This document shows positions 7,142 through 37,410 of a stretch of 64,000 bases of DNA, piece after piece; the stretch's first letter is position 1; every line of letters starts with the position of its first letter. Position numbers and translations under genes: made by a program. The DNA is from Candidatus Poribacteria bacterium (lineage in GTDB: Bacteria; Poribacteria; WGA-4E; WGA-3G). The notes beneath the pieces were generated by a model. The model was not told where the DNA came from. It did not search any database and saw only the letters and a list, made by a program, of their open reading frames with translations. The DNA lies in NCBI GenBank assembly GCA_022827625.1, contig JAJEIE010000004.1:1-64000 (forward strand). The letters run 5' to 3'.

Positions 7142-8120
7142 AGCGTATCCTCGGATCTACCCAAGCAAGGGCTATATCTGCGATCAAGTTCCCGATAACC
7201 AGTAGGAGGCTCAGCATCATAATAAGCGTCCCCGCGAGGTAGATGTCCTCGTTCAGTAGACTTCGTAAGAGAATCGGACCGACCGTCGGCAGCCCGAGCA
7301 CAATAGAGACGATTGCTGAACCGGAGAGAATACCCGGTAGACTCATCCCTAAAATGCTAATGAGCGGATTAATCGCAATCCGCACGGCATGCTTGCTTAC
7401 CACGACGACTTCCTTCAGTCCCTTCGCGCGTGCGGTTTGGACGAAAGGTTGTCCCAGAACATCAAGTAGGTTGCCTCGCATGATGCGCATCAAACTGGCG
7501 GTCCCGTTAATCCCGACGACGATGACAGGAATCCAGAGGTGGGTAAGCAGGTCGCCCAACTTGCCCCAAGTCCACGGCGCGCCTTCATAGTAAGCCGAAA
7601 ATAGCCCGAATAGCGGAACACCGAAAATGTCAAATGCGAATACCATCAGCGATAGTGCTAAGAGGAAAGCCGGTATTGACATCCCGACGAAGCTGAGGAA
7701 GGTCAGAAAATGGTCTGACCATTGGTATTGATGCGTTGCGGAATAGACACCGAGTGGGATAGCGAGGACATAGGTAAAGATGAGTGATCCGACGGAGATA
7801 ATCAACGTGAAGGCGATTCTATCCCATATCAGTTCGTGGACTTCTCGTTTATACTCGAACGACTCACCGAAGTCGCCACGGACAAAGCCGCTTATCCAGA
7901 TAAGATAGCGTTTCCAGAGCGGGTCGTTCAACCCGTAGCGTTCCCGGAGTTCCTCGACCTGTGCCAGCGAGCTGCTATCGCCGAATTCCTCTTCTAACCG
8001 TTGAATTTCGCGGTCGAGGTAGTCGCCTTGTGGGAGCTGGATAATGATAAAAGAGATGATGGAAATCGCCAAGAGCGTCGGAATTGCGATCAAACATCGG
8101 CGAATAATATAGGTAATTAT
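7134..8120 (-). CDS. Peptide ABC transporter permease (OppB/DppB type)
   Basis: Inner-membrane permease with six predicted helices. The EAA-loop region reads TARAKGLKEVVVVSKHAVR, and LRERYGLNDPLWKRYLIW matches the OppB N-terminal domain. The conventional start is TTG at 8093, but conserved family sequence (ITYIIRRCLIAIPTLL) extends upstream. An AAGGAG ribosome site at 8134-8129 sits 8 nt from an ATA (8120) and 11 nt from an ATT (8117). I therefore extend the gene to about 8120, accepting a non-canonical start; the exact codon is uncertain. Confidence 0.88.
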   Translation of the reverse strand: MITYIIRRCLIAIPTLLAISIISFIIIQLPQGDYLDREIQRLEEEFGDSSSLAQVEELRERYGLNDPLWKRYLIWISGFVRGDFGESFEYKREVHELIWDRIAFTLIISVGSLIFTYVLAIPLGVYSATHQYQWSDHFLTFLSFVGMSIPAFLLALSLMVFAFDIFGVPLFGLFSAYYEGAPWTWGKLGDLLTHLWIPVIVVGINGTASLMRIMRGNLLDVLGQPFVQTARAKGLKEVVVVSKHAVRIAINPLISILGMSLPGILSGSAIVSIVLGLPTVGPILLRSLLNEDIYLAGTLIMMLSLLLVIGNLIADIALAWVDPRIRYE

Positions 8121-8145
8121 CGGTCTATCTCCTTTTTTGGCTATC

Positions 8146-8262
8146 GGCTGTCAGGTCGCTACGCTTTCAGCAATCAGCAAGAGAAACTTGTGGCGGACAA
8201 AACGTTGTTCTTTGCCGGACGGTCTACTGACTGCCGACTGCTGACGGCTGACGGCTATTCCT
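8146..8262. repeat. Inverted-repeat element with GGCGGACAAAACGTT core
   Basis: Imperfect terminal inverted repeats (TATCGGCTGTCAGG at the left, CTGACGGCTGACGGCTAT at the right) flank the core TGGCGGACAAAACGTTGTTC. A related core, TGGCAGATAAAACGTTTTTG, occurs in the element at 12218-12320. It lies between the substrate-binding protein gene and oppB. Confidence 0.7.
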
Positions 8263-10267
8263 TATCCATCCAACACTGTTCCGGATAACTCGTTGCGGGT
8301 GTAACAATTGCCCAGGGCCCCAGAATACCGTCGTTTGGAACGTTGTGAAAATGGTTTGCTACGACTAAAAGCGATGGCGAACGTGCGGCGGAACCGAGAT
8401 GAAACGGTCCCTCATCGATGTGAATCCTAACGGCATCTCGGACGTATTGGTGCCGTTGTTGTGCGTCGGGTTCCCGTTTAATTTCGTCGTATAAGTCCAG
8501 TAGTTTCTTTAGGGGTCCCGTGGGAGGTTCACCCTTTTCACCGCCCGTTTCGTACCACTTTCCGACTTTAGGATGCCAGTACTTAGGGAGCGTTGGGAAG
8601 ACCCAATCGGGATAGGTAAAGAGGTCCATTTCTGCTTCACCGTGCATACTGATCGTGAATTTTCCGAGCGTGCGGCGTAGACTTAATTCGGCACCCGGGG
8701 GTGTGTAGAGCAGCGTTTTTAAGCCGAGCTGCTCCCATCCTTCCTGAATGATTAGCCCGATGTCGTTTTCCTGACTGTTAAGGTTAGAACTCGGGACGTC
8801 CATGAGTATCTCAATCTGTTCGCCATCTGGACGTAACCGATAACCATCTTTATCGCGTTCCGTGAGTCCCATTTCATCAAGGAGGCGATTTCCTGCAGTA
8901 ATGTCGAAGTCGGCATCGGCACGTTTCCATTCCTCAAAGAGGGCTTGCCCGTCTTCATCGGCGAAGTGCCAACCCTCTTGGCTCACGGTCGCTGCCTGCG
9001 GTTCCAACAAACCGCGCCATGCGATCTCGTTACACTTCACGCGATCGATGCCGTAAGCGAGTGCCTTTCGGAACCGTTGATCCCGAATGAGTTTTCTTAA
9101 TTCAGGATCGGGTGCCGTCCAGTTAATCAGAATCGCGGGTTGCGCGCCAGCCGTGCTTTTCCAACGCCGGACCTTATAGCCACCCTTCTCCTGTCCTTTT
9201 AGATAGAGTGCGAGATCCCGAAGTTCCATCCCGCGGTATTGACAGTCGATCTCTCCGGCAAGGATTTTAAGGACACGCACTTGCGGTTCAGGGACCAAAC
9301 TCGTCTTGACCCTATCAATGTAAGGCAGTTGCCTTCCGAGTGTATCAACGACGTAGTAATAAGGGTTGCGTTCCAACTCGACGCGGAACCCCCCTTTTTC
9401 ATACTTTATGACTCGCCAGGGCCACAACGTCGGACGTTCCGGGTTTTGGTGCGGAATGTCTTCCTTCTCGAATTGGATGAAATCCTTATATTCCGGGTTG
9501 CTGTCTGGGTGAAACTGCTTCATGTGGTGCTCAGGGATGTTATATTGATTGCACCACCAAAATCCTGTTGCCAACCAAAGCGGCACGAGCCAATTGGGAC
9601 CTGCGAATTTCATCACGATTGTGTGGTCGTCAGGGGTCTCGACTTCCATTGGAATGCCGTTTACTTTACACCAAACCGGCGGGCTGTATTTATACCGATC
9701 ATCAAGGCAGAGATCATACCAGAAAGCGAACGAGGCTGAAGTATAGGGGTGACCGTCTGACCATTTAACGCCTTTGCGGAGATGCAATGTCAAGATACTG
9801 CCATCCGCATTAAACTCCCACGTTTCGGCAAGACCGGGTTCCAGACCAGAGGCATCGAATTTCCAGCGGATGAGTGGGGCATAACCCGCTGTCATCTTCC
9901 ACGTTCCTAAGTCTGGATGTGTGTGGAACCGGTGCCATGTTCCCCCATAAGGACCGGGTTGTTCATAGCCGTCGAAATCCGTTTTAGCAACGAGTGGATT
10001 CTCTGGGAGCCGCTCGGAGAGAGGAGGGAGTTTTCCCGCAGCAACCTGTTTTGCCCACATCGGTGCCTCTTTCGCCTCAATTCCACGCGGAAAGTCAGAG
10101 GTCTCTTCTATCTGGCTCCCTGAACATCCTACGATGAAAATTAGGAAGATGAGGAATGGTCTAATGGAATAGGAGTTCCTAACCCCCTTTGCCCCCCTTA
10201 TCAGGGGGGAATGGAACCGTCTTATGACATTTAGGGCAGTTTGGAAAGTTTCTGTTAGCTTGGACAT
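8255..10267 (-). CDS. Peptide ABC transporter substrate-binding lipoprotein
   Basis: Predicted SBP_bac_5 family (DppA/OppA-like) solute-binding protein of about 670 aa. A lipobox-like FIVGC-SGS follows the hydrophobic stretch RPFLIFLIFIV. The mature domain has the usual order: GLAETWEFNADGSILTLHLRKGVKWSDG, then RFRKALAYGIDR, and a long C-terminal lobe. The ATG at 10267 lies one base after the upstream stop (TGAG-ATG) with GAGGA upstream, so it is probably the start. About 35 residues then precede the lipoprotein signal, partly encoded by an inserted G-rich palindrome, so an internal start nearer the signal is also possible. It supplies substrate to OppB/OppC. Confidence 0.92.
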   Translation of the reverse strand: MSKLTETFQTALNVIRRFHSPLIRGAKGVRNSYSIRPFLIFLIFIVGCSGSQIEETSDFPRGIEAKEAPMWAKQVAAGKLPPLSERLPENPLVAKTDFDGYEQPGPYGGTWHRFHTHPDLGTWKMTAGYAPLIRWKFDASGLEPGLAETWEFNADGSILTLHLRKGVKWSDGHPYTSASFAFWYDLCLDDRYKYSPPVWCKVNGIPMEVETPDDHTIVMKFAGPNWLVPLWLATGFWWCNQYNIPEHHMKQFHPDSNPEYKDFIQFEKEDIPHQNPERPTLWPWRVIKYEKGGFRVELERNPYYYVVDTLGRQLPYIDRVKTSLVPEPQVRVLKILAGEIDCQYRGMELRDLALYLKGQEKGGYKVRRWKSTAGAQPAILINWTAPDPELRKLIRDQRFRKALAYGIDRVKCNEIAWRGLLEPQAATVSQEGWHFADEDGQALFEEWKRADADFDITAGNRLLDEMGLTERDKDGYRLRPDGEQIEILMDVPSSNLNSQENDIGLIIQEGWEQLGLKTLLYTPPGAELSLRRTLGKFTISMHGEAEMDLFTYPDWVFPTLPKYWHPKVGKWYETGGEKGEPPTGPLKKLLDLYDEIKREPDAQQRHQYVRDAVRIHIDEGPFHLGSAARSPSLLVVANHFHNVPNDGILGPWAIVTPATSYPEQCWMDKE
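10180..10215. repeat. G-rich palindrome in frame within the binding-protein gene
   Basis: Copy of the dispersed family, AACCCCCTTTGCCCC followed by CCCTTATCAGGGGGG, read in frame as SPLIRGAKGV just before the lipoprotein signal sequence. Confidence 0.75.
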
Positions 10268-34811: not shown

Positions 34812-34923
34812 TAGCTATCAGTGATCAGATCGCTGTGCTTTCGGCAGTCAGTAGAGCGTGTGGCTGAAATATTTTGGGATGACAAATGCATTCTCCGCTT
34901 CTCAAGGATATGAGGAGGTAAGT

Positions 34924-36060
34924 ATGCAAATTTACCAGGGTACCGAACAGACGCTCGATGCCAAAACGCTCCTCTCAATCTTAAGCGAGGATTGGGAAGG
35001 TGTGTTTTTAACGCGGTGCATCATTGAAGGAACCGTCCTCTTTCCAACGCAATCCGTTGTTAATAAGGAAATCGTCTGCATTGGATGCACCTTTAAGAAC
35101 GTTGTCAGATTCGAGAAAGTTGATTTTCAGAAGGAGGTTTTCCTCGGAAATTCCGTTTTCCAAGAAGCACTTCATTTTCGTGGTGCGGTCTTTCAAGATA
35201 CCTGCGACTTCGGGGAATCTACATTTGAAGGGTCCGTTTTCTTTCGCGAGACGACCTTTTATGGAAAGGCAAATTTTCACCAGACCTGTTTCCAGCAAAT
35301 TGCCGATTTCAACGAGGCACGCTTCTTAGAAAAGTCGGTTTTCAGAAACGCGGTCTTTCAGGACACCGCACATTTCAATCGCGTATTGTTCAATAAACAG
35401 TTAGAATGCGCGCAGGCGCGCTTCTCGGAGACCACTGTTTTTAACGATTCAACATTCCTTGGAGAAACTGACTTCACTTCTACACGGTTCGCTGTTGCAG
35501 CAGCCTATCGGAATGTTCATTATATCCCGAACACAATCTGGCAATGGTTTGACAACAAGTGGAAACAACAGGCTGCACAGCCGACGGAATTCTACCTCGA
35601 TAGCGAAGATATTAATGAGGTTTTGAATCCTTTTTTCAAACGTTACGTAGCGGATCAACAGTTCGTCCGAGCCTTTAAAGAGAAACATCCGTTCTGGGCG
35701 CGAATTTGGAGATGGAGCTCGGATTATGGCCGCAGTTTGGCACTTTGGGCACTCTGGTCGCTGCTTATCGCCCTTTCGTTTTCACTGATGTATATGCCAG
35801 CACCGACCTGGTTTCCAGAAGGGCTGCAAGAAGTGATGCCGCAGTTCCATCAAGTAACCGGCGAGAAAGTGGATGAACCCTTGACGTTTTGGAAATCTTT
35901 TTACTTTAGTATTGTAACCTTTACGACTTTGGGGTTCGGGGATGTCGTAGCGGACAATACCTCGGCGCGTATTCTCGTTACACTTGAGGTTATCTTCGGA
36001 TATATAATGTTGGGCGGTTTAATTAGTATCTTCGCCAATAAACTCGCCAGTCGGAGTTAA
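34924..36060 (+). CDS. Pentapeptide-repeat K+-channel-like membrane protein, copy 1
   Basis: A 378 aa protein combining two modules. Residues about 60-215 are a run of Phe-containing pentapeptide-like repeats (VFQEALHFRGAVFQDTCDFG pattern). A short linker with PFFKRYVADQQF precedes a two-helix pore domain: helix 1 near 270-290 (LALWALWSLLIALSFSLMYM), pore helix and selectivity filter TTLGFGD near 333, helix 2 about 345-370. GFGD is consistent with a potassium-selective filter. ATG at 34924 has AGGAGG 6 nt upstream. The architecture suggests a soluble repeat domain that gates or scaffolds the pore; that is inference. Confidence 0.85.
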   Translation: MQIYQGTEQTLDAKTLLSILSEDWEGVFLTRCIIEGTVLFPTQSVVNKEIVCIGCTFKNVVRFEKVDFQKEVFLGNSVFQEALHFRGAVFQDTCDFGESTFEGSVFFRETTFYGKANFHQTCFQQIADFNEARFLEKSVFRNAVFQDTAHFNRVLFNKQLECAQARFSETTVFNDSTFLGETDFTSTRFAVAAAYRNVHYIPNTIWQWFDNKWKQQAAQPTEFYLDSEDINEVLNPFFKRYVADQQFVRAFKEKHPFWARIWRWSSDYGRSLALWALWSLLIALSFSLMYMPAPTWFPEGLQEVMPQFHQVTGEKVDEPLTFWKSFYFSIVTFTTLGFGDVVADNTSARILVTLEVIFGYIMLGGLISIFANKLASRS

Positions 36061-36071
36061 AGTAGACACAA

Positions 36072-37229
36072 ATGTACGAAAAGCATGGCGAAACAATTAG
36101 TGCACAAGCCTTCCTTGAGGCGTTACAGGGCGATGCGGGACGTGTTGTCCTTACAAATTGCGTAATTGAGGGGGTTGTTGACATCTTTTCTACCGGCTTA
36201 GAACGAGATGAGCACAACAGGATTCTTCTCAAAAAGGCCCTCACCTGCACGGGATGCACATTTAGAAATATCGTCAATTTCCGGGCAGTCGTTTTTCAAC
36301 AGGAGGTTGACTTTCGGCGCACGCTCTTTGAGGGGATCCTTGATCTCGATGAAGCCGTCTTATACGGTCCCTGTGCCTTCCGTGAGGCTATCTTCCAGAG
36401 ACGTGCTGATTTTCATAGCGCGATGTTCCGCAGAAGTGCGAGTTTTTGGCGGGCGAGATTTAACAACGTTGCTGATTTCCATGGGGTGCAATTCCGGGAG
36501 AACGCCGTTTTCCACGAGGCTGACTTCCATACTGAGGTCAATTTTCGGCGCGTCCTGTTTCAAGGCACGCTTGATTGTACAGGCACATTGTTTCCTGAAA
36601 TCACTACGTTCAATAACGCTACATTTCTGGGACCTGCCAACTTTACTGGGTCACGATTCATTTCTGTTGCTGCCTTTCGGGATGTGCAATATATTCCAGA
36701 CACACTCTTTCGAGCAGCGAAAGCGAAGCTGAGCAGAGAACAGCATCGTCCCACCGAATTCTATTTGGATAGCCAACATGTAGACGAAGTGGCGAGCCCT
36801 TTTTTCAAACGCTACGTCGCCGATCAGCAATTCATCCGTGCTTTCAATCAGGCAAATCCTATATTGGCATACTTATGGCGATGGAGTTCTGATTATGGGC
36901 GGAGTCTGGGGCTTTGGGCACTCTGGTCGGTATTCTTTGCGATTCTGTTTACGCTTGCGTATATGCCGTTTCCAGAATGGCTGCCGTCGTGGATTCAAGA
37001 CTGGGCGCCGCGTTTCCATCAAACGACGGGTTTCTATAGTGGCCGGACGTTAACCTTCTCGGACTGCTTCTATTTTAGTGTTGTAACATTCACAACGCTC
37101 GGTTTTGGGGATGTCGTTGCCGACAACGCTCCTGCCCGCTTCCTTGTCGCACTGGAGGTAATTTTTGGGTATGTGATGTTGGGTGGATTGATTAGTATTT
37201 TCTCAAACAAACTGGCAAGTCGGAGTTAA
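36072..37229 (+). CDS. Pentapeptide-repeat K+-channel-like membrane protein, copy 2
   Basis: A 385 aa tandem paralogue, 11 bp downstream of copy 1. Residues about 65-215 carry F-x-x-x-x type repeats (VVFQQEVDFRRTLFEGILDL), then FYLDSQHVDEVASPFFKRYV, pore helices LGLWALWSVFFAILFTLAYM (about 277-297) and filter TTLGFGD (near 340), then LISIFSNKLASRS, identical at its end to copy 1 apart from one residue in FxNKL. The close pair could form a heteromeric channel. I see no regulatory ligand domain other than the repeats. Confidence 0.85.
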   Translation: MYEKHGETISAQAFLEALQGDAGRVVLTNCVIEGVVDIFSTGLERDEHNRILLKKALTCTGCTFRNIVNFRAVVFQQEVDFRRTLFEGILDLDEAVLYGPCAFREAIFQRRADFHSAMFRRSASFWRARFNNVADFHGVQFRENAVFHEADFHTEVNFRRVLFQGTLDCTGTLFPEITTFNNATFLGPANFTGSRFISVAAFRDVQYIPDTLFRAAKAKLSREQHRPTEFYLDSQHVDEVASPFFKRYVADQQFIRAFNQANPILAYLWRWSSDYGRSLGLWALWSVFFAILFTLAYMPFPEWLPSWIQDWAPRFHQTTGFYSGRTLTFSDCFYFSVVTFTTLGFGDVVADNAPARFLVALEVIFGYVMLGGLISIFSNKLASRS

Positions 37230-37380: not shown

Positions 37381-37410
37381 TTGACAAATTTTGTGAACAG
37401 CGTCTATAAT
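37381..37410 (+). promoter_or_regulatory. Consensus promoter of the metzincin-TPR gene
   Basis: TTGACA (37381-37386), 18 bp spacer, TATAAT (37405-37410). The first in-frame ATG is only 17 nt downstream, so the leader is short. Confidence 0.8.

Follow-up and report, generated by a model that had tools for sequence, protein, structure and literature searches.

Organization of the gene pair

The analysed window, a stretch of 64,000 nucleotides on contig JAJEIE010000004.1, originates from a MAG of Candidatus Poribacteria, a sponge symbiont. By their open reading frames and profile matches, two genes were identified on the forward strand, where the sequence-only reading had placed a tandem. Gene A (P0001, positions 34924 to 36060) codes for a protein of 378 amino acids and is preceded by a strong Shine-Dalgarno sequence, GAGGAGGT, at positions 34912 to 34919 (+). 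Gene B (P0002, positions 36072 to 37229, +) codes for a protein of 385 amino acids and follows after an intergenic gap of 11 bp (36061 to 36071). The two proteins are paralogues and share 49% identity over their full length. Both were matched by two Pfam profiles, judged against the curated cut-offs: PF13576 (Pentapeptide_3) with E values of 1e-19 for P0001 and 3e-30 for P0002 (70.7 and 104.7 bits, cut-off 27), and PF07885 (Ion_trans_2) with 4e-14 and 4e-12 (52.6 and 46.4 bits, gathering score 22.5). A profile scan of genome contigs revealed that, among the matches listed, the nearest relatives are themselves Candidatus Poribacteria. Further downstream, a perfect sigma-70 consensus (TTGACA, 18 bp, TATAAT) is present at positions 37381 to 37410 of the window, closely 5' of a gene for a matrixin/TPR protein.

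The repeat domain

A count of the periodicity identified 13 ungapped 11-residue repeats of the type FxxxxxFxxxx in each protein, at residues 57 to 199 of gene A (positions 35092 to 35520, +) and residues 64 to 206 of gene B (36261 to 36689, +). Pairs of phenylalanines at a distance of 11 residues were found 19 times in A and 18 times in B, compared to 3.5 and 3.0 in shuffled sequences (z 9.4 and 9.9), which places the repeat far above chance. At distances of 10 and 20 residues, no enrichment of such pairs over the shuffles was obtained in either protein. Since the spacing of the phenylalanines alternates between +5 and +6, the repeat unit is 11 residues, and a five-residue periodicity was ruled out for P0001 and P0002. 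The pentapeptide unit assumed for both proteins on first reading therefore had to be replaced; the term "pentapeptide repeat" is valid here as a Pfam label and invalid as a unit length.

In an AlphaFold2 model calculated from a 40-sequence alignment (pLDDT 85.7 for the full-length protein), the repeat region of gene A forms a regular solenoid with pLDDT values mostly between 95 and 98. The solenoid was matched to the solved structures 6fls (Z 17.7), EfsQnr (17.2), QnrB1 (16.4) and MfpA (15.9), and profile matches of the N-terminal domain in the PDB were likewise to proteins of the Qnr/MfpA type. The beta-helix proposed from the sequence is thus well borne out by the model. Qnr, MfpA, AlbG and 6fls, which the predicted solenoid resembles with Z scores of 15 to 18, are soluble proteins with a period of 5, whereas the solenoid described here has a period of 11 and is fused to a channel. 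A strongly charged beta-helix, as for nucleic-acid binding or DNA mimicry, was considered and rejected, with unremarkable net charges of -3 and 0. Among the orthologues of gene A, the repeats evolve faster than the pore, which does not favour one fixed site for a small molecule.

The linker and the pore

In gene A, the solenoid is followed by a conserved linker of residues 232 to 267 (FFKRYVADQQF..WRWSSDYGR; positions 35617 to 35724, +), assigned from the alignment and the model and predicted to form helices N-terminal of the pore. Hydrophobicity and the model identified an outer pore helix S5 at residues 272 to 290 (35737 to 35793, +), which is followed by the selectivity filter TTLGFGD at residues 334 to 340 (35923 to 35943, +) and, in the model, by an inner pore helix S6 at residues 346 to 377 (35959 to 36054, +), which stops one residue short of the C-terminus. 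In gene B, the conserved linker comprises residues 239 to 274 (36786 to 36893, +), the same filter is located at positions 37092 to 37112 (+), and S6, by alignment to A, at 37128 to 37223 (+). Both chains terminate directly after S6. The minimal two-helix pore of the sequence-only reading was hence recovered, with two hydrophobic helices flanking a filter of the TxGxGD type and Ion_trans_2 scores above the cut-off. Basic residues are present beside the helices, on the N-terminal and on the C-terminal side, and no signal peptide was identified in A or B.

The segment joining solenoid and pore (FKRYxADQQF..WRWSSDYGRSL) is mostly helical in the model, and its conservation is about that of S5. Among the orthologues of A, conservation is highest in the filter, the linker and S6, and the turret is variable. 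With the linker profile, no PDB chain, HalA included, was matched at E values up to 10. The pore profile matched K+ channels in the PDB, with K2P channels among the nearest sequences. When modelled alone (pLDDT 76.5), the pore resembled GORK, NaK, SthK, HalA and KirBac3.1, all with a Z score of about 10. The predicted build is that of a beta-helix like those of Qnr and MfpA on a pore like those of KirBac, NaK and KcsA.

The filter contains GFG rather than GYG, which would suit a channel-like protein without K+ conduction, either non-selective or a non-conducting sensor. However, K2P channels are K+-selective with GFG filters, and the filter and the pore helix of the new proteins are nearly invariant across relatives. 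Such a protein is considered highly improbable.

Comparison to characterised channels

The expectation that no channel of this layout has been characterised was supported by searches of the PDB by sequence, which identified none with exactly this layout, and by a literature search, with most subscription papers beyond its reach, in which no description of a pentapeptide-repeat ion channel was found. In a 2021 review of the repeat family, the word "channel" does not occur. For the full-length model, no match in BFVD was obtained with Foldseek at an E value of 0.001.

Among characterised channels, HalA of the anti-phage Hailong system comes closest in layout, as an analogue and not as a demonstrated relative; it is an ion channel which is blocked by poly-dA adducts of HalB (PMC13275509). 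Like the proteins described here, HalA (PDB 9nyi) consists of a large N-terminal domain and a C-terminal pore (residues 260 to 356 of the aligned chain). The pore model was superimposed on HalA with a Z score of 10.1 and an rmsd of 2.7 over 96 residues, a fold which is common to many K+ channels and not diagnostic. In contrast, the linker profile revealed no sequence likeness. The full-length model matched HalA with a Foldseek E value of 0.026 and a TM score of 0.25, and HalA was not among the 50 listed matches of the N-terminal domain. Gating of HalA by DNA and its DNA-binding crown domain were reportedly described by Tan et al. in 2025. No HalB-like nucleotidyltransferase was recognised in the immediate neighbourhood of the channel genes.

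With KirBac and Kir channels, the proteins share a 2TM/P pore with a helix ahead of S5 (KirBac3.1, Z 9.8) and a weak match to the IRK profile PF01007, which at 20.4 and 17 bits remained below the cut-off of 22.7. However, the immunoglobulin-like cytosolic domain at the C-terminus of Kir channels is absent, since the protein stops after S6. Kch, MthK and GsuK (pore Z 9.7) likewise combine a K+ pore of the 2TM type with a cytosolic regulatory domain, as proposed here, but in P0001 and P0002 this domain would be an N-terminal beta-helix, and no TrkA_N/RCK domain was matched by Pfam in either protein.

History of the locus

In relatives, the gene order is DUF1501, A, in some cases a Gfo/Idh-like gene, an AAA_15 ATPase, B and the matrixin/TPR protein, and in most of them the ATPase and/or the Gfo/Idh-like gene are located between A and B. 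At the locus in the window, the immediate neighbours are DUF1501 and the matrixin/TPR gene. The ATPase is missing from this locus, and the genome contains only distant ATPases, so that A and B now adjoin. Within the genus of the window, its own genome included, B was identified in 33 genomes and A in 12. In G016, a gene A remnant of 56 residues with a stop seen within it is located between DUF1501 and the ATPase (L044:5037-5204). In G017, gene B is interrupted after about residue 320 (L041:7575-8766), where an element with an OrfB_IS605/TnpB-like gene (7677-8798, +) is located.

A recent tandem duplication was ruled out: A and B are ancient paralogues, which have separate orthologues in many genomes. 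The tandem is best explained as the product of local rearrangement at an old locus with two paralogues. For both genes, dN/dS values of 0.09 to 0.16 were obtained, also between species without the ATPase, showing that both are under purifying selection.

It had been suggested that the two paralogues form a heteromer, and their identity, common strand and close spacing would suit an obligate heterotetramer. However, B alone is the more common state; A alone is seen as well, genome-wide in G033 and at a locus with A and the ATPase in G064, where A is the single match; and other genes intervene in nearly all genomes containing both. Since the tandem is not conserved and many species have only one of the genes, an obligate heteromer is very unlikely.

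The ATPase itself might point to a role in conflict. It precedes B by 43 to 208 bp, in the same orientation, in 26 of the 26 same-genus genomes that have it (for example directly 5' of gene B at L043:6284-7759 and L041:4940-6352, both +), and its closest PADLOC model is AriA of the PARIS system (2e-33). As HalA is a channel effector (PMC13275509) with a matching pore, the new channel could be an anti-phage effector which, once released by the ATPase as a sensor, depolarises the cell. Against this, the channel is near-universal, syntenic and vertically inherited in the family, whereas defence genes are patchy; the ATPase is absent in the species of the window and in others with a channel under purifying selection; it is also absent from the sampled loci of genus g20, in which A and B are both present; and PADLOC gave no match for either channel. 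An anti-phage function is therefore judged unlikely. A channel gene need not be accompanied by the ATPase or by its sister gene.

Distribution of the fusion

The fusion is not peculiar to this locus, as might have been assumed from the single sequence. A survey of genomes identified the linker-plus-pore module in 60 of the 85 Poribacteria genomes, namely in almost every genome of the family to which the window belongs and rarely beyond it, and at least six further phyla carry the fusion. Among the matches listed, it was identified in Aminicenantes, Planctomycetota, Pseudomonadota, Thermodesulfobacteriota, Myxococcota, Lentisphaerota, Electryoneota and two IMG/VR contigs; among the aligned members listed, Ion_trans_2 was matched in 40 of 40 and Pentapeptide_3 in 39 of 40. 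In many phyla, the linker motif D-Q-x-F..LW..SS-D-Y/C-GRS and the S6 end EVIxGYVMLGGLISIxANKLARRS are kept.

The period of 11 was found in all Poribacteria copies examined for it and in two copies from Aminicenantes. Relatives from most other phyla contain genuine period-5 repeats, joined to the same linker and pore, and the length of the repeat region differs widely among members. One linker-plus-pore module is thus coupled to two repeat classes. For a single switch of the repeat class on the pore tree, the AU test gave a p value of 0.035 with all rows and of 0.108 without three of the rows.

At four loci from Gammaproteobacteria MAGs, a triple fusion of 842 to 857 amino acids was identified, in which a region similar to flavin monooxygenases (FMO) is followed by pentapeptide repeats and then by the same channel (L112:1466-4036, L117:3844-6414, L119:3856-6414 and L121:3889-6414, all +). 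The FMO-like region was tested with Pfam in two of the four loci. At L117, a gene with a GAF domain is the next after the fusion gene.

Proposed function

In our proposal, each gene codes for one subunit of an inner-membrane channel, presumably tetrameric and selective for K+, and A and B, as ancient paralogues, would each be able to work as a homotetramer. The N- and C-termini are placed in the cytosol on account of the basic residues flanking both helices and the lack of a signal peptide, so that four beta-helices would be suspended beneath the pore. A ligand, a partner protein or a fused sensor would dock onto the beta-helix, and the linker helices, like the slide helix of Kir channels, would transmit force from there to the S5/S6 bundle. 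The beta-helix would thereby serve as the gating handle, a role filled in other channels by RCK or cyclic-nucleotide domains. Conduction and gating through the linker are plausible from the sequence and the model, and this reading as a whole is considered the most likely one, with moderate confidence.

The strongest hint of the beta-helix as an input platform is the triple fusion with the FMO-like region, as would be expected of a platform which carries sensors. Outside Poribacteria, no recurrent neighbour genes were identified beyond close relatives, and for most members no ligand is therefore named by the context.

The chief alternative is a K+ channel in which the beta-helix does no more than anchor, cluster or stabilise the tetramer, while the pore leaks or is opened and closed at the filter or by lipids. 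A rod with a purely structural or anchoring task would yield identical sequence data. With such a spacer or scaffold, the wide variation in repeat length would be tolerable; the change of repeat class by lineage above an unchanged linker and pore, and the absence of a conserved partner outside Poribacteria, also speak for it. On the other side, the high conservation of the linker is expected of a coupling element, and the FMO fusions argue against a mere anchor. A passive beta-helix is thus regarded as rather unlikely.

Should the beta-helix gate the pore, it would add a new input module, shared by many phyla, to those of K+ channels, and in the FMO fusions the membrane potential would be tied to the redox state. 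With a repeat protein wired to a pore, the current would become a measurable read-out of what the beta-helix binds. More tentatively, the proteins may constitute a widespread, so far undescribed class of K+ channels gated N-terminally by a cytosolic beta-helix sensor, with the FMO versions gated by redox state or NADPH; if true, the latter would be a bacterial counterpart of Kv channels and their Kv-beta subunits.

Further members and their settings

A relative with a TTLGYGD filter (L152:395-1702, -) has a signal-peptide-like stretch ahead of the repeat domain, which conflicts with a cytosolic location of this domain, unless translation begins further downstream. Three IMG/VR contigs (L134:1097-2407, L135:3852-5171 and L136:3852-5171, all +) share a syntenic gene for a channel-like protein of 440 amino acids with the filter FTTLGFGD and an N-terminal domain without clear repeats. 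In the Poribacteria genome G054, no fewer than four full-length members were identified, which are divergent and each located on a contig of its own (L032, L033, L034 and L035). The member from Thalassotalea has an integrase-like gene on one side and, on the other, a PLD-like and then a resolvase-like gene (L105:4500-8475), a setting typical of a mobile island. In two Pseudomonadales MAGs, a gene for an FHA-domain protein is divergent to the channel gene (L126:2079-3059 and L128:4176-5207, both -), and its FHA domain was tested with Pfam in L128.
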